DNA of 37,954 nucleotides from Burkholderiaceae bacterium (GTDB lineage Bacteria; Pseudomonadota; Gammaproteobacteria; Burkholderiales; Burkholderiaceae), in the NCBI GenBank assembly GCA_947452625.1, contig CANGEC010000003.1, positions 1 to 37,954 on the forward strand, given 5' to 3'. The position numbers and the translations under genes were made by a program. The notes beneath the pieces are model-generated. The model saw nothing but the letters and a program-made list of their open reading frames with translations. It had not been told where the DNA came from and did no database searches. Positions 4,039 through 30,949 of this stretch are shown one piece after another; position 1 is the stretch's first letter, and each line of letters starts with the position of its first letter.

Positions 4039-4298
4039 AAATCGGCAATGCCTTCTAAGGGGTCGCGCTCTTGAGAGCCTTGATTGCGATCTTGTGGCGT
4101 TAAAAAGTGTGCCGGAACTTCTGCATTCTTTAGGGCCGAGAAGAAGCCGTCCCAACTTTCAGGTTTACGGGACAAGATTAGGTCGCCAGTAGCGGGATCT
4201 TGCCGAATAAAGACCTCTTTTTCTTGAAAACGAAATGCTGCCGGCAAACGAATTGCCTGACTCCGTCCATTCATGAAGATTTTTGCGGTCTGACTCAT
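4035..4298 (-). CDS. vapB: VapB family (AbrB/SpoVT-type) antitoxin
   Basis: [22 protein letters not shown]-terminal DNA-binding motif; precedes and overlaps vapC by 4 nt; AAGGAG upstream of the ATG. Confidence 0.92.
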
Positions 4299-4311
4299 TA
4301 TACGAACTCCT

Positions 4312-4335
4312 TGGTATATATCAAAGTATATACCA
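4312..4335 (-). promoter_or_regulatory. Probable VapBC operator/promoter palindrome
   Basis: TGGTATATA-TCAAAG-TATATACCA: a perfect 9-bp inverted repeat with 6-nt spacer just upstream of the vapB start codon. Confidence 0.7.
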
Positions 4336-4392
4336 TCATAGATAGTCCTGCTTCTTATTTCAAGAGCTAAAAGAGGGATAACGCGTCAGAAA

Positions 4393-4809
4393 TTACTGTT
4401 TTTTAGCGCTGGATTCATCTACCCAAGTCGCGTTCTTGGCATCCCATTGCTGGAAAAAGCAGCTGTGTTCACCCGTATGGCAGGCAATGCTATCTTTTTG
4501 CTCAACCAGTAACAAAATCGTATCGCCATCGCAATCCAAACGTACTTCCCGTACTTTTTGCGTATGGCCAGATTCTTCACCCTTATGCCAAAGCTTTTGG
4601 CGAGAACGCGTCCAGTAAATCGCCTCCCCCAAGCGCAATGTTGCCAGCAGGGCATCACGGTTCATCCAAGCCATCATTAAAACGTCGCCACTACCGACCT
4701 CTTGAGCAATTACTGGAACTAGGCCCTGCTCGTTCCAAGTGACTGCATCAAGCCAAGCGCCTGCCTGCAAATCACTCATCGGGGTGAAGGTACTTTTAGA
4801 TGAACTCAT
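4393..4809 (-). CDS. hisI: phosphoribosyl-AMP cyclohydrolase
   Basis: [44 protein letters not shown] and [10 protein letters not shown] motifs. Confidence 0.97.
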
Positions 4810-4844
4810 AGATAAACTTTACAGCGATTACTCTTTGTCTGTAA

Positions 4845-5603
4845 TTAAATCCGCACCGGGATGCCTTGGGCGGCCATATATTCTTTTGCCTGGCCAACTG
4901 TAAATTCACCATAGTGAAAAATACTAGCCGCCAAAACAGCATCGGCATGCCCTTTGGTAATGCCATCGACCAAATGCTGCAGATTACCCACGCCCCCAGA
5001 GGCAATCACCGGAATGCTCACGGCATCGCTCACGGCAGCGGTCAAGGCCAAATCGAAACCATCTTTACTGCCATCGCGATTCATGCTGGTGAGCAAAATC
5101 TCGCCAGCACCTCTTTTAGCCACTTCACCTGCCCACGCCACTACATCCATACCTGTCGCAGTTCTACCGCCATGGGTAAATACCTCCCACTTGCCTGGAG
5201 CAGTTTGTTTAGCGTCAATTGCCACCACAATGCATTGCGAACCATAGTACGCCGCCGCATCTGACACTAAATCTGGATTGGCTACTGCGGAAGAGTTCAT
5301 GCTGACTTTGTCAGCGCCGGCATTAAGTAAGCGCCGCACATCTGCCACGGCACGCACTCCGCCACCGACAGTCAATGGAATGAATACTTGAGCCGCAACA
5401 TCTTCAATGATGTGCAAAATCAAATCGCGTCCATCGGAGGTTGCGGTGATATCTAAGAAAGTGAGCTCATCAGCACCTTGAGTGTCATAGCGACGCGCAA
5501 TCTCTACTGGATCGCCGGCATCACGCAAACCCACAAAATTTACGCCTTTGACAACTCGACCTGCTGTGACGTCAAGACAGGGAATGATTCGTTTAGTCAG
5601 CAC
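4845..5603 (-). CDS. hisF: imidazole glycerol phosphate synthase subunit HisF
   Basis: [31 protein letters not shown] and [10 protein letters not shown] motifs. Confidence 0.98.
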
Positions 5604-5614
5604 TAATGAGCACG

Positions 5615-6376
5615 CTAGATAATTTTTTTAGAAAACTTCAGCGTTAACTCATCAGCATATTTTTGAGCTTTAGCAAGATCAAGATCACCAGAGTAAATGG
5701 AGCGGCCAGCAATAACACCCATAATGCCCTCTTCCTCCACCGCACACAAAGATTCAATATCTTGATTATTGGATAAGCCGCCGCTAGCAATGATCGGAAT
5801 GCGCACTGCCTGAGCCAATTTCACAGTAGCATCGACATTGACACCTTTGAGCATGCCATCGCGCCCAATATCGGTATAGATGATGGCCTCAACACCATAG
5901 TCTTCAAATTTCTTGGCAAGGTCGATCACTTCATGACCAGTAATCTTGCTCCAACCATCGGTTGCAACCTTACCATCGCGCGCATCTAAACCTACCATGA
6001 TGTGACCCGGAAAAGCGACGCAAGCATCCTGCACAAAACCAGGGCTTTTAACAGCTGCGGTGCCAATGATCACGGTACTAATGCCGTCATCAAGCAGTCG
6101 TTCAATGGTTTCCAGATCACGAATGCCGCCACCCAACTGCACCGGAATGTCATCACCGACTGCTTTGAGAATTGATTTAATCGCAGATTCGTTTTTTAAC
6201 TTTCCTGCGAACGCGCCATTTAGATCGACCAGATGTAAGCGACGCGCCCCTTTACTAATCCAATGACCGGCCATCGCGCCAGGGTCATCGGAAAATACCG
6301 TAGCCTTGTCCATATCACCCTGTTCGAGTCGAACACAGTGGCCATCTTTAAGATCTATTGCGGGAATCAGCAGCAT
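5615..6376 (-). CDS. hisA: ProFAR isomerase (1-(5-phosphoribosyl)-5-[(5-phosphoribosylamino)methylideneamino]imidazole-4-carboxamide isomerase)
   Basis: [32 protein letters not shown] and [10 protein letters not shown] motifs. Confidence 0.98.
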
Positions 6377-24357: not shown

Positions 24358-25062
24358 CTAAGATGCTGAATTTAAAGGATTTAATTTTCTTGGTCGGCCA
24401 CGATGACGTATTAAAGTCTGCCCTAAATCATGCTTAAAGAGTTTTTTAGCGCATAGCTCGCTAACCCAAGGCTTAGAGCGCAACAAAGCATCCGTAATCT
24501 GCCGATCCTCCCAATGTGGGGCGCCATCTTTTACAAAGCTTGACCAGGACATCTGACGCTCAAATGGCGTATTGCCCAACTTCCAAAAAGACTCGTGATC
24601 TACCAACCAAGGCTCAAGCTTGTCGCCAATGTGACTTGCAAAGCTCGTCCAACTCGAATCTTGGGGGCTCGACTCAAACCCCGCTCTGACAGGATTTAAT
24701 TCGATATAACGCTGGCAACGCAAAAAATATTCTGGATCAATCAGTGAGGAACGGTACCGGCCCTCCCAAATCGTGCCCGAGCGGTGATGCTTTTGATTGA
24801 AATATTGCGCATAGCGCCGCCCCAATGACTGCATGGTTTTTGATAATGAATTTGCATACGCGGGGGTAACCAATAAATGTACATGATTAGGCATCATGGC
24901 AAATGCATGTACTGAGCAAGCAAATTGTTTAGCGGCTTCACGCAACCAGTCGAGATAAATCTTGCGATCAGCATCATCAAAGAACAGCACTTCTCGATTA
25001 TTACCGCGCACCATAACGTGCATTGCCTGACCAGGAATAACAGTGCGCGCCTGTCTAGCCAT
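24358..25062 (-). mobile_element. REP-associated tyrosine transposase (RAYT, Y1_Tnp superfamily), intact ORF
   Basis: PGQAMHVMVRGNNRE, HUH-type MPNHVHLLV, GTIWEGRYRSSLID and RYIELNPVRAGF. Confidence 0.92.
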
Positions 25063-25073
25063 GACGAAACAGA

Positions 25074-27410
25074 TTACTGAAGTTCGCGAGCACCGCCGCC
25101 GCTAGAAAATTCTGGGATAAACCAATCGCCATCCACTTGCGTAACTCCTGAGGGAACTTCTCGTGATCCCTGCGGGGAATCTCTTAAGGCAGTTGTCATA
25201 TAAGAAATCCACATAGGCAATGCTAATCCGCCGCCAGTTTCTCGATCACCCAAGCTGGCAGGCTTATCAAAACCAATCCACGCGATTGCCACAACTTTGG
25301 GGTTGTAGCCTGCAAACCAAGCATCATGAGAATCATTTGTTGTACCGGTTTTACCGGCAATATCGCTACGCCCCAACTTCGCTCTAGCGCTTGCAGCAGT
25401 TCCAGACTTGGTGACTTCTTGCAACATACTATCCATCACAAAAGCAGTGCGTGCATCAAGGACTCTGGGGGCATCCTGTCCCGCATGTGTTGGCTTAGCC
25501 TCAAACAGCACATTACCTTTTGAGTCGATCATCTTGCTAATTAAAAATGGATCTACCCGATATCCTCCATTTGCAAAAACACTATAGGCGGAAGCCATTT
25601 GCAACGGGGTTACCGATCCTGCACCTAAGGCCATAGTTAAATAGGGCGGATGCTTTTCAGGTTCGAAACCAAAGCGCTGAATATATTCTTGGGCATAAGA
25701 TGGACCAATCGCACGAATAATTCGCACAGAAACTAAATTTTTCGATTTGGCTAAAGCGGTGCGTAAGCGCATCATGCCCTCGTACTTTCCATCGTAGTTC
25801 TTAGGCTCCCACACCTGACTTCCTGTTTCCATACTGCCAATTGATAAAGGCGCATCATTGACCATGGTGCTTGGTGTAAAACCTTTTTCAATTGCTGCCG
25901 CATAGATGAACGGTTTAAAGGAGGATCCCGGCTGCCTTAAGGCTTGGGTCACATGATTAAATTGATTGCGTCGAAAATCAAAGCCCCCAACCAAAGAGAG
26001 AATCGCGCCAGTCTCAGCATTCATGGAAACAAAGGCAGCTTCCACTTGAGGTAACTGGGCTAACTTCCAAACACCGCCATCCATCAACAGTCTCACTACT
26101 GCGCCGGGACGCAAACGCTTTTTAGGTTGAGTGCTATCCGTCAGAGAGGCAGCTGCCAACTTCAAGCCATCACCCTTGAGGGTAATGACGTCTCCCGTAG
26201 CAATCATCACTTGCATTTCTTTAGGTTTGGCGTCTAAAACCACTCCTGACTGCAAATCATCCAACTGTGGGTACGCTAACAAGGCCTCGTCAATGGCACG
26301 TTGACGCTTTACGTGATCTTCAGGTAAGTCAATGAATCCTTCGGGTCCACGATAGGCATGACGCAAGTCATATTCAAAAATACCGCGGCGTACCGCTTTA
26401 TAAGCAGCATCTTGATCAGCCTGCAAAATCGTCGTGTAAACGTCCAGACCTTGTGAATAAATTGCTTCACCATACTGTGCAAGCAATAATTGTCGAACCA
26501 TTTCTGCAGGAAAATCTGCGCGTGTACTAAATTCATTTCCTAAGCCACGAATATGCAATTCTTCAGCCATGGCCTTTTGATACTCGGCAGGCGTGATATA
26601 CGAAAGATCACGCATTCGCTGCAAAATATATTCTTGACGTATCTTGGCGCGACGGAAATTCGTGACGGGGTTATAGGCTGATGGTGCTTTTGGCAGGCCA
26701 GCCAGCATCGCTGATTCCGCTATGCTGATATCTTTCAATTCTTTACCGAAATAAATTTGCGCTGCACTAGCAAAACCAAATGCACGTTGCCCCAAAAAAA
26801 TCTGGTTCATGTAAATCTCTAGAATCTTGTCTTTGCTGAGCTCAGACTCGATCTCCCAAGCCAACAGGACTTCATAAATTTTGCGGCTAAAGGTTTTCTC
26901 GTTACTCAAGAAAAAATTCCGGGCAACCTGCATCGTAATAGTCGACGCACCTTGAGCTAGATGGCCCCGCAAGTTTGCCGTACCAGCCCGCAAAACGCCG
27001 ACATAATCCACCCCACCATGGGAATAAAAACGATCATCCTCAGTAGCAATCACAGCATTACGCATGCTCATAGGGATTTCATTTAGAGGAATGACTTTGC
27101 GCCGTTCTTCTCCAAACTCACCAATCAATACTTTATCGGCGGTATAGATACGTAATGGCGTCTTTGGGTTGTAATCTAGCAAAACAGAAATCTTGGGAAG
27201 ATTTGGTTTAGCAATCAAGAATGCATAACCCAGCAATAAAGTAATCATCAAGGCACATACAACCCCAATAATTAATAGCGCTTTTACCAGTGGATTACCA
27301 CCAGAGCCTTTGCCAGGGGAAGATTGGGCTCCAAACTGACGCGGCTGTCTATCAGGAAACCTGCTTGAACGCTGCTTGAGCTGCGGCTTATCTTTTGGGG
27401 TGAGTGCCAT
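25074..27410 (-). CDS. mrcA: penicillin-binding protein 1A
   Basis: Transglycosylase ATEDDRFYSHGGVDYVGVLRA and QGASTITMQVARNFFL; transpeptidase QPGSSFKPFIYAAAIEKG, SKNLVS and GKTGTTND. Confidence 0.97.
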   Translation of the reverse strand: MALTPKDKPQLKQRSSRFPDRQPRQFGAQSSPGKGSGGNPLVKALLIIGVVCALMITLLLGYAFLIAKPNLPKISVLLDYNPKTPLRIYTADKVLIGEFGEERRKVIPLNEIPMSMRNAVIATEDDRFYSHGGVDYVGVLRAGTANLRGHLAQGASTITMQVARNFFLSNEKTFSRKIYEVLLAWEIESELSKDKILEIYMNQIFLGQRAFGFASAAQIYFGKELKDISIAESAMLAGLPKAPSAYNPVTNFRRAKIRQEYILQRMRDLSYITPAEYQKAMAEELHIRGLGNEFSTRADFPAEMVRQLLLAQYGEAIYSQGLDVYTTILQADQDAAYKAVRRGIFEYDLRHAYRGPEGFIDLPEDHVKRQRAIDEALLAYPQLDDLQSGVVLDAKPKEMQVMIATGDVITLKGDGLKLAAASLTDSTQPKKRLRPGAVVRLLMDGGVWKLAQLPQVEAAFVSMNAETGAILSLVGGFDFRRNQFNHVTQALRQPGSSFKPFIYAAAIEKGFTPSTMVNDAPLSIGSMETGSQVWEPKNYDGKYEGMMRLRTALAKSKNLVSVRIIRAIGPSYAQEYIQRFGFEPEKHPPYLTMALGAGSVTPLQMASAYSVFANGGYRVDPFLISKMIDSKGNVLFEAKPTHAGQDAPRVLDARTAFVMDSMLQEVTKSGTAASARAKLGRSDIAGKTGTTNDSHDAWFAGYNPKVVAIAWIGFDKPASLGDRETGGGLALPMWISYMTTALRDSPQGSREVPSGVTQVDGDWFIPEFSSGGGARELQ

Positions 27411-27538: not shown

Positions 27539-28216
27539 ATGCCCAGCCGACACATCTCCCCGCAATCCTTTGATGAGATTTTGAGTGAATTAGGGGATGA
27601 TCCTGCCATTCCAGATCCGCATGGCATCAGAAAGCCCTCCGCCCCTCGTAAGCCAACCTCACACCAATCTGTCGCTGAAAAAGCGCTTTTTTTTAATAAT
27701 TTAGAGCCTGCAAGCGTTAACAAAATTTGGTGGTTTTTTGGCGGCCTCCTCGGTGGCGCCTTACTGTTTCTTGGCCTTGGCACTTTATTTCTAGATGACC
27801 TTAAAGCCGACTCCGAAAAGTCCTTAGCAGGGACTCAAGCGCAAGTTGCTGAGCTCAAGAAAGAAATCGCCCTGCAACGCCAAAATTCAGAAAATATTCA
27901 TGATGATCTTTATCAATCAATAGATGAATTAGAAGTAAGTATTCACTCTAAAATAAAATCATCAGCCCAAACTGTAAAAATTATCGCCAAAGTTGACCCA
28001 TATGAGTCTGAAATACTCCGCTGGCGTTACCTGGGAATGACCCAAGTTGGCCAAAGCCAACAAGCCTTCTTTCAATCCAAAACTGCACGCCTTGCCTTTC
28101 AAGTTGGCAATTCTATTTTGGGTGACTGGCACCTTTCTGAGATCAAAAAAGATCAAGCAAGTATCTCCAACTCCAAAGGTAAAACTTTGTTTCTAAAGGC
28201 AATGAAAATCCAATGA
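27539..28216 (+). CDS. Bitopic inner-membrane protein with coiled coil and PilP/GspC-like C-terminal region
   Basis: Cytoplasmic leader, one TM (IWWFFGGLLGGALLFLGLGTLFL), heptad-like segment, then WRYLGMTQVG...LAFQVGNSILGDWHLSEIKKDQASISNSKGKTLFL. ATGA overlap with the secretin gene. Confidence 0.75.
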   Translation: MPSRHISPQSFDEILSELGDDPAIPDPHGIRKPSAPRKPTSHQSVAEKALFFNNLEPASVNKIWWFFGGLLGGALLFLGLGTLFLDDLKADSEKSLAGTQAQVAELKKEIALQRQNSENIHDDLYQSIDELEVSIHSKIKSSAQTVKIIAKVDPYESEILRWRYLGMTQVGQSQQAFFQSKTARLAFQVGNSILGDWHLSEIKKDQASISNSKGKTLFLKAMKIQ

Positions 28217-29322
28217 AACTCCCAATCTTTAACTTCCAAATTTGTATCGCTTCTTTTGCATTCACAATCAACTTATGGATAGGCTCGGCAGAGGGTGGCA
28301 ATGCGCCCATCGCCCACCCCAACACGAACATTAGCCTGCAATTTACCGATATCGAACTTGCCGAACTATTGCAGATATTGGCCAAACTGGGCGGAGCCAA
28401 CTTTCTACTGAGTGAATCGATTCAAGGCAAAATCTCGGTCGATCTCATTGATACCCCTTGGCAAACCGCCCTTCATTCCATCATTGCTAGCCGAGGTCTA
28501 CGCCTCACCCGCAACGGTGACATCTACTGGATTGGCCCCCACTCAGAAATCCAGGCATTCCAAAAATTCCGCAGAGAAGATGCCGCACTTCCTTTTGGAG
28601 GAGACCATATCAATAGCCCCAAGCAAATCCTCATTGAAGCCAGAATTGTTGAGGCAGATCAGCGTTTTGCCCGTGAGCTAGGCATCAAACTAGGATATCA
28701 AGCCAATGGCTTGGGGGCCAATCCAGACCAAATCATCAGTGGCAATACCGATCTAGGAGGAACAGGTCTTAATGGCTTTAATCCGGCAAGTCTAGCGGCA
28801 ACCTTGGTATCGAAGACTGCCAGTCAGCTTTTGCAGGTGGAGCTTTCCGCACTCGAAGCCGATGGTCAGGGGAAGATCCTTTCTAACCCCAGAATCATGA
28901 CTGGGGACCAGGTTAAGGCCACCATTGAACAAGGGACCGAACTACCCTACCAAACCACCTCCCAAAATGGCAGCAAATTGCAATTTAGGAAGGCGAACCT
29001 TCGCTTAGAGGTGTTACCCAAAATTCATCCCGATGGAAAGATCTCCATGCTCGTAGGGATCAATAAAGATACTGTGGGTATTAAAACGGAGCAAGGTTAT
29101 GCGATTGACACCAAAAATTTAAGTTCGGAAGTGACAGTAGAAAATGGTGGGACTGCCATTATTGGAGGCATATTTCAAACTACGGACCGAGAAGATGAGG
29201 TCAAAGTTCCACTATTGGGCGATATACCCCTGATTGGCGGTTTATTTCGCCATAAATCAAAGTTACAAGATAAAACTGAGCTACTTGTCTTCCTAACACC
29301 CACTGTTCTTGATAAACCCTAA
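28213..29322 (+). CDS. PilQ/HofQ-type mini-secretin
   Basis: Signal peptide, N0/STN-like ISLQFTDIELAELLQILAKLGGANFLLSESIQGKISVDL, secretin IEARIVEADQRFARELGIKLG, LSNPRIMTGDQVKATIEQGTELPY, VPLLGDIPLIGGLFRHK. Confidence 0.93.
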   Translation: MKLPIFNFQICIASFAFTINLWIGSAEGGNAPIAHPNTNISLQFTDIELAELLQILAKLGGANFLLSESIQGKISVDLIDTPWQTALHSIIASRGLRLTRNGDIYWIGPHSEIQAFQKFRREDAALPFGGDHINSPKQILIEARIVEADQRFARELGIKLGYQANGLGANPDQIISGNTDLGGTGLNGFNPASLAATLVSKTASQLLQVELSALEADGQGKILSNPRIMTGDQVKATIEQGTELPYQTTSQNGSKLQFRKANLRLEVLPKIHPDGKISMLVGINKDTVGIKTEQGYAIDTKNLSSEVTVENGGTAIIGGIFQTTDREDEVKVPLLGDIPLIGGLFRHKSKLQDKTELLVFLTPTVLDKP

Positions 29323-29334
29323 TAAAATCGAAGG

Positions 29335-29859
29335 GTGAACTCTTCATCCAACAATATCTTTCTGATCGGCCTAATGGGCGCCGGGAAATCCACCGTTGGC
29401 AAAGTCCTGGCAAAAAAATTAGGGCGGCGCTTTTTGGATGCCGATCACGTCATTGAAGAGCGTTGCGGGGTAAAAATCCCCGTGATTTTTGAAATGGAAG
29501 GTGAAGAGGGGTTTAGAAAGCGTGAGGCCCAAACCATTAATGAAATCAGCGCAGAGCATGATATTGTTTTGGCGACCGGTGGTGGCGCTGTTCTTAACCC
29601 AGAAAATCGTAGGCTACTAAGTGAGCGAGGGGTAGTAATTTATCTTCATGCCAACCCTATTGAACTGTGGCATAGAACTAAAGGTGGCGAAGGTAGACCA
29701 CTTCTCAGAAATGGTGATGCCAAAAAAATTCTTGAAAATTTATATGCCATTCGTGACCCCCTATATCGCGAAATTGCCGATCACGTAATTGAAACCGGCA
29801 AACCGAGTGTCAATCAACTGGTCAATACTTTAATCATGCAGCTTGAACTATCCGCTTGA
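29335..29859 (+). CDS. aroK: shikimate kinase
   Basis: [22 protein letters not shown] Walker [20 protein letters not shown] start. Confidence 0.97.
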
Positions 29860-29866
29860 AATTCTT

Positions 29867-30949
29867 ATGAAAACACTTGAAGTAGATCTTGGTAGCAGAA
29901 GCTACCCAATTCATATTGGCACCGACTTGATTGATCAAGCCGAACTCTTTAATGCCTGCGAGAAAGCCAGCTCTATTTACATTGTGACTAATACAACGGT
30001 TGAGCCTCTCTATGCAAATCGACTCGTTAGTACTTTAGAAAAATTTGGCAAGCCTATTAGAAAAATTGTGCTGCCCGATGGCGAGTCCTATAAGGACTGG
30101 AAAAACCTACAATTGATTTTTGATGCTCTGCTGACTCATGGGGCTGATCGCAAAACCATGCTCATCGCACTCGGCGGGGGAGTTATTGGAGATATGACTG
30201 GCTTTGCTGCTGCCAGTTTTATGCGGGGCATTCGCTTTATTCAAGTTCCCACTACTTTATTGGCACAAGTGGATTCTTCAGTCGGCGGCAAAACCGGCAT
30301 TAATCACCCTCTCGGGAAAAATATGATTGGGGCCTTTCACCAACCAGAAGCAGTCATTGCGGATCTCAATACATTAAAGACCCTGCCCGCTCGCGAGCTA
30401 TCTGCCGGCTTAGCAGAAGTTGTTAAACATGGCGCTATTGCTGATGCCCAATTTCTCAATTGGATTGAAGCCAACGCGAAAGAACTTTTGGCGTGCGATA
30501 CAGAAGCGATGGCGCATGCGGTATTGCGCTCTTGTGAAATTAAATCAGCCGTTGTGTCGGCAGATGAACGTGAGGGAGGCGTTCGTGCCACGCTAAACTT
30601 TGGCCATACTTTTGGCCATGCCATTGAAGCGGGCATGGGCTATGGCGAATGGCTCCATGGCGAGGCGGTAGGTTGTGGCATGGTTCTCGGTGCCGATCTC
30701 TCTCAGCGACTTGGGAAAATTACCCGAGCCGAAGTTGAACGCCTAACAAAAATCATCCAGTCCATGAACCTACCTACACAAGCGCCAAAATTTGGCGCAC
30801 CGCGTTATATGGAATTAATGCAAGTGGATAAAAAGACTGAGGGTGGGACGATTCGCTATGTATTACTCGAGCAAATCGGTAAAGCAACTATCCAAAGCGT
30901 TCCTGATGCCACTGTATTAGAAACCCTTGCTGCCACTGGCGCCGCTTAA
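29867..30949 (+). CDS. aroB: 3-dehydroquinate synthase
   Basis: [66 protein letters not shown] at 29867 preferred over 29843. Confidence 0.97.

Follow-up and report, generated by a model that had tools for sequence, protein, structure and literature searches.

The locus and the layout of its secretin

The window that we analysed, a stretch of 37,954 nucleotides, belongs to Polynucleobacter as judged from named relatives. At its centre of interest lies an unbroken open reading frame for a short secretin, which we call mini-PilQ, preceded by a small gene, X, whose stop codon overlaps the secretin start (ATGA). The features are collected in Table 1. Related bacteria have the gene order ponA, pilM-N-O-P-Q, aroK, aroB; in Polynucleobacter the order is ponA, X, pilQ, aroK, aroB, with pilMNOP absent from the pilQ locus. 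For PilN, PilO and PilP this absence refers to the locus only.

Table 1. Genes and protein domains at the mini-PilQ locus (positions in the window; aa, residues of the encoded protein)
Feature	Position	Strand	Evidence
ponA/mrcA, PBP1A family, conserved divergent neighbour	25074..27410	-	
Gene X, 225 aa, predicted bitopic inner-membrane clamp in the pilMNOP position	27539..28216	+	
X, long helix aa 57-142, predicted membrane segment and periplasmic coiled coil	27707..27964	+	model
X, PilP/GspC-HR-like beta domain (predicted), aa 163-221	28025..28201	+	model pLDDT ~95; Foldseek; hmmsearch; hhalign
mini-PilQ secretin	28213..29322	+	369 aa; TIGR02515 303.2 bits, cut-off 284.35
N0 (STN) domain, aa 39-109	28327..28539	+	PF07660 63-109; model pLDDT ~90; 4ar0 N0 match
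Helix aa 110-125, corresponding to the N0 C-terminal helix	28540..28587	+	model; PMC3441751
12-residue linker aa 126-137, site of the missing KH-like N1/N3	28588..28623	+	profiles, structures, model
Secretin domain aa 138-366, motifs intact (EARIVEAD, VPLLGDIPLIGGLF)	28624..29310	+	PF00263 213-366; PilQ structures 134-366
aroK, conserved neighbour downstream of pilQ	29335..29859	+	
aroB	29843..30949	+	

Between gltB and ponA the window also holds a gene resembling the Y1/REP-associated tyrosine transposases (24358-25062, minus strand). It matches PF01797 above the cut-off and scores 67.8 bits against an NCBI model with a cut-off of 80. The same spot is occupied in other Polynucleobacter (L109, L111, L113 and L104), and in another genus (L152) the gene adjoins gltB; a vertically kept, domesticated copy is suggested.

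PilQ has a single KH-like domain (PF03958), which some authors call N1 and others, since it adjoins the barrel, N3. AMIN domains in front of N0 are common in PilQ, and not universal. The first-pass annotation had read mini-PilQ as an intact frame with complete secretin motifs, in which a signal peptide and an N0/STN-like domain, ending near residue 109, are joined straight to the secretin domain with neither AMIN nor N1. Pfam, an alignment with solved structures and a monomer model agree on this layout. The signal peptide probably covers about residues 1-26. Pfam reports an STN and a Secretin domain and nothing in the gap between them; the STN score, 26.3 bits, is slightly below the cut-off of 28.4, the Secretin match has an E-value of 1.5e-45, and the N0 domain also aligns with that of 4ar0 (E 3.9e-14). 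Secretin_N (PF03958) and AMIN have no match in mini-PilQ even at E<=10, and this includes residues 105-140, where an N1 would have to lie. In 10 diverse members of the genus neither has a match at E<=1. As positive controls, N1-bearing relatives match PF03958 with E-values from 1e-11 to 9e-16, and AMIN is found as well in a 731-residue relative (control L152).

Against solved PilQ structures mini-PilQ aligns in two blocks, N0 (residues 28-118) and the barrel part (134-366), separated by 15 residues where the Neisseria PilQ structure has about 83. The AlphaFold2 monomer, built with 44 relatives and of moderate quality (mean pLDDT 70, about 90 in N0; pTM 0.47), places a helix and a short linker after N0, and the first secretin strand follows at residue 138. 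Such a helix at the C-terminal end of N0 has been reported to be general in type IV pilus secretins (PMC3441751). What is missing is the KH-like N1/N3 domain itself, about 60-85 residues with its linkers. A divergent N1 overlooked by the profile can be ruled out: N0 and the first secretin strand are only 28 residues apart, the model shows helix and linker there, and the N1 controls were positive.

Mini-PilQ passes TIGR02515, the NCBI model of PilQ (Table 1). It falls below the cut-offs of the two HofQ models (198 and 162 bits against 554 and 598), of the GspD equivalog (172 bits against 351; GspD has several N domains, where mini-PilQ has no PF03958), and of the SctC and MshL models. With regard to the gene order that marks a PilQ locus, pilMNOPQ-aroKB, the ponA and aroK-aroB flanks are present and X stands in place of pilMNOP. 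We regard mini-PilQ as a variant of PilQ rather than an ordinary member, because the KH-like domain between N0 and barrel is absent.

Distribution of the N1-less layout

Mini-PilQ has a match in 182 of the 187 Polynucleobacter genomes, and the 150 matches listed run overwhelmingly without a break from N0 to barrel. The N0 tryptophan precedes the barrel motif by 49-56 residues in 82 of the 87 loci that were fetched, against about 113-139 residues in relatives that keep N1; among the other five, four are full-length with a motif that escaped the pattern, and one is a contig fragment. Even members of the genus that are only about 50% identical have the N1-less layout. The layout is therefore shared by relatives, and is neither due to chance nor an in-frame deletion confined to this assembly. 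PF03958 is present in 45 of the 187 genomes, but in frames other than mini-PilQ, which are either about 700-800 residues long with up to three domains or about 510-545 residues long (L245 has an accessory PilQ of this kind). In the window's own genome there is no PF03958 and one secretin only.

Outside the genus, no N1-less secretin occurs among the best matches listed for the order (400 genomes from 164 genera, those without a match included) or for the class (370 genomes, 273 genera). The best matches listed, from scans of 300 genomes of the family, 400 of the order and 370 of the class, cover the barrel part only, the frames behind them are usually about 450-1000 residues long, and the short class secretins that we inspected retain an N1-type stretch. 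Two more N1-less PilQs are found among small-genome relatives, in L294 (genus g21) and L295 (genus g20), and four other g20 genomes (L296-L299) keep N1; the three of these that were scanned match PF03958 at E about 1e-11.

Polynucleobacter forms one clade (100/98) in a tree built from the barrel part only, with g20 and g21 placed elsewhere. A single loss shared with g20 and g21 is rejected by the AU test (p 4e-8), which here concerns the gene tree only and includes some long branches. Since one N1-less clade is rejected, at least two losses of N1 must have occurred, with the reservations that long branches and a gene tree call for. The loss is fixed in Polynucleobacter and happened separately in a related lineage. 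The N1-less loci of g20 and g21 retain genes resembling pilM, pilN and pilO. The L294 locus also has a PilP gene, and none was identified at the L295 locus. Loss of N1 and loss of pilMNO are separable, because in g20 and g21 the first has occurred and pilMNO are still there.

Two other arrangements were seen in passing. Elsewhere in the class, secretins of a length comparable to mini-PilQ (373-375 residues) adjoin aroK in L300 (G783, 4794-5912) and L301 (G778, 4171-5295), but theirs is the reverse loss: they have retained an N1-type stretch and have no N0 (in L301 by inspection), and no pilMNOP-like genes are evident immediately upstream. Genus g17 (L148, L149 and L150) has another reduced locus upstream of pilQ. 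It starts with a PilM-like gene, continues with a gene for 179-198 residues that combines a PilN-like NLLPYR motif with a C-terminal PilP/HR-like stretch, and ends with a PilQ of 448-452 residues that has N1. This is apparently a parallel compression of pilNOP.

Gene X and the pilus genes of the genus

The neighbour X, which the first-pass annotation did not mention, tells us no less than the secretin does, and perhaps more. Its cytoplasmic tail is conserved (RHISPQSFDEILSELGDDPAIPDPHGIRK), and no lipobox is seen in the protein, which has a long predicted membrane and coil helix. For the C-terminal domain the top Foldseek hit is the HR domain of GspC in a GspC-GspD complex (3oss_C, probability 1.00, TMt 0.75), and several PilP structures are hit as well; E-values are 0.007 and up, and this is the sole coherent family. 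A profile of the domain, searched against the PDB with hmmsearch (177,635 sequences), puts Neisseria PilP at ranks 1 and 2 (E 0.0013 and 0.0039). The hhalign comparison with PilP-type domains picked from relatives gives 95%, and by inspection the PilP of g21 has a GKWRVVSID motif similar to X. Searched against Pfam, the PilP family included, X yields nothing over the cut-off; its weak matches (AcaB, TssO etc.) were taken as chance similarity of the coiled coil. The predicted fold and the weak profile scores together identify a putative PilP/HR-type beta domain in X. At a dN/dS of 0.24, X evolves faster than the secretin.

Pilus genes elsewhere in the genus vary. The L245 locus (G071:C1:1209000-1228000) holds an accessory type IV pilus cluster, as in some Polynucleobacter; here one PilM-PilN-like and one PilO-PilP-like fusion accompany a 522-residue PilQ that has N1, a PilB-like ATPase of full length and pilin-like genes. 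At G031:C1:850697-864533 and G034:C1:318745-328279 PilM, ATPase and PilC are present as fragments interrupted by stops, which suggests decayed leftovers of another pilus cluster. A peptidase-only PilD of 166 residues is present in G084; in L243 it adjoins the ATPase gene. In the window's own genome (L242, G000:C4) the gap between coaE and PilC is about 140 bases and the short PilD of L243 is missing, which could be a real loss or a flaw of the metagenome-assembled genome (MAG).

A probable reduced pilus machine and its known counterparts

We think it probable that mini-PilQ serves as outer-membrane secretin in a greatly reduced machine of the type IVa pilus kind, most likely for DNA uptake, and that it descends from an ancestral PilQ through loss of the AMIN domains and of the one KH-like domain. 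The secretin would then carry one flexible periplasmic ring, N0, hung under the barrel by the short helix and the linker, and its vestibule would be one ring shorter. X, predicted to be anchored in the inner membrane and to span the periplasm with a long coiled coil, would bind the N0 ring through the PilP/GspC-HR-like domain. In this way X alone may do the linking that is done elsewhere by PilM-PilN-PilO-PilP, and the port would serve DNA uptake by way of a short (pseudo)pilus. PilP binds N0, not N1 (PMC3441751), so the loss of N1 need not cost the clamping: the clamp site survives.

The broader proposal is a genus-wide pilus or DNA-uptake machine with a lone N0-ring vestibule, in which PilM-PilN-PilO-PilP are compressed into one coiled-coil/HR protein. 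We offer it tentatively, as a possibility that has nearly as much for it as against it. If true, this would be among the smallest envelope-spanning scaffolds of type IV filaments, and the barrel-proximal KH ring would be dispensable in PilQ.

The role of the machine has to be judged from the rest of its parts. Complete free-living-type Polynucleobacter genomes have no PilM, with local matches of 18-20 bits only. Most of the complete genomes checked have one PilB/ComGA-type ATPase of about 360-400 residues, which in the one examined (L242) is a T2SSE core only, and no second full ATPase, therefore no PilT. One PilC and 1-3 N-methyl pilins are found in most genomes checked, and ComEC in most genomes, with no match in G067 and G034. 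It is unlikely, we believe, that mini-PilQ serves protein secretion or an adhesion or twitching pilus instead of DNA uptake. Its nearest solved relatives are general PilQs, and DNA uptake is not the sole possible role, because G067 has the secretin and the ATPase with no ComEC match. The one short ATPase, the lack of PilT, the few pilins and the prevalence of ComEC nevertheless speak for uptake, and in some genomes there is a separate accessory pilus system with an N1-bearing PilQ of its own (L245).

A further reading holds that N1 was replaced rather than lost, the missing ring being formed by another protein, by residues of X or by the 12-residue linker. Helix and linker are indeed well conserved in closer relatives (FQKxRRxDxALPFGGDH), and the model of X supplies a long periplasmic helix. 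However, divergent members of the genus differ in the sequence and the length of the linker, a KH fold needs about 70 residues, and the model of X contains no KH-like domain; we consider a replacement distinctly improbable.

There is very little to be said for a decaying, pseudogene-like remnant of PilQ. Some genomes, G031 for example, have the secretin in a broken or split state, and it has stops in G037 and G061, but it is intact in nearly all of the about 150 species genomes among the matches listed, and the partner genes are retained. A dN/dS of 0.044 against L032, with dS near saturation, points to strong purifying selection on mini-PilQ. Conservation refutes decay for most of the genus. 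Although the window comes from a 79%-complete MAG, an assembly or frame artefact that removed N1 from a normal PilQ is rejected as having practically no chance of being right, since the same layout is found genus-wide, in single-contig genomes of many species too.

The first-pass annotation had called a secretin without N1 architecturally unusual. This holds in so far as we found no paper on an N1-less PilQ in open-access text and none on this Polynucleobacter secretin, and a paper of 2025 describes N0 and N3 as seen in every secretin (PMC12114550). It is not wholly without precedent, as the Tad secretin RcpA of Pseudomonas aeruginosa lacks N3 (PMC10499894). With N1 loss fixed and purifying selection acting, Polynucleobacter is a natural counter-example among PilQ secretins, and within g20 species that have the KH domain can be compared with others that lack it. 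Whether assembly or gating depends on the KH ring can thereby be put to the test, as can the question whether clamping between N0 and HR is sufficient alone. X, as a possible one-protein stand-in for PilMNOP, may be of use for studying the alignment of inner-membrane with outer-membrane parts.

Among known systems, PilQ of type IVa pili (Neisseria 9sh1 and 4av2, Vibrio 6w6m; TIGR02515) shares with mini-PilQ the N0 domain, the helix at its end and the secretin domain, as well as the aroK-aroB neighbourhood and a PilP-like partner gene. Ordinary PilQ differs in having AMIN and the KH-like N1/N3, and PilM, PilN, PilO and PilP encoded at its locus. The HofQ/ComE-type secretins (about 410-450 residues), which are linked to competence, are likewise short and without AMIN, but comparably short relatives keep N1 and even the best HofQ model scores mini-PilQ far below its cut-off. 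RcpA of P. aeruginosa (8odn) resembles mini-PilQ in having no barrel-adjoining KH-like domain and a single periplasmic domain joined via a linker (PMC10499894); in RcpA, however, that domain is VirB9-like and not N0, the system is a different one, and other RcpA homologues keep N3. X, finally, differs from PilP in that it is no lipoprotein and is predicted to be bitopic, with a coiled coil of some length, and from GspC in lacking the extra C-terminal domain typical of that protein. Yet its beta domain is predicted to be of one kind with PilP and the GspC HR domain, the partners of N0 in PilQ and GspD, and its gene likewise adjoins that of a secretin with N0.
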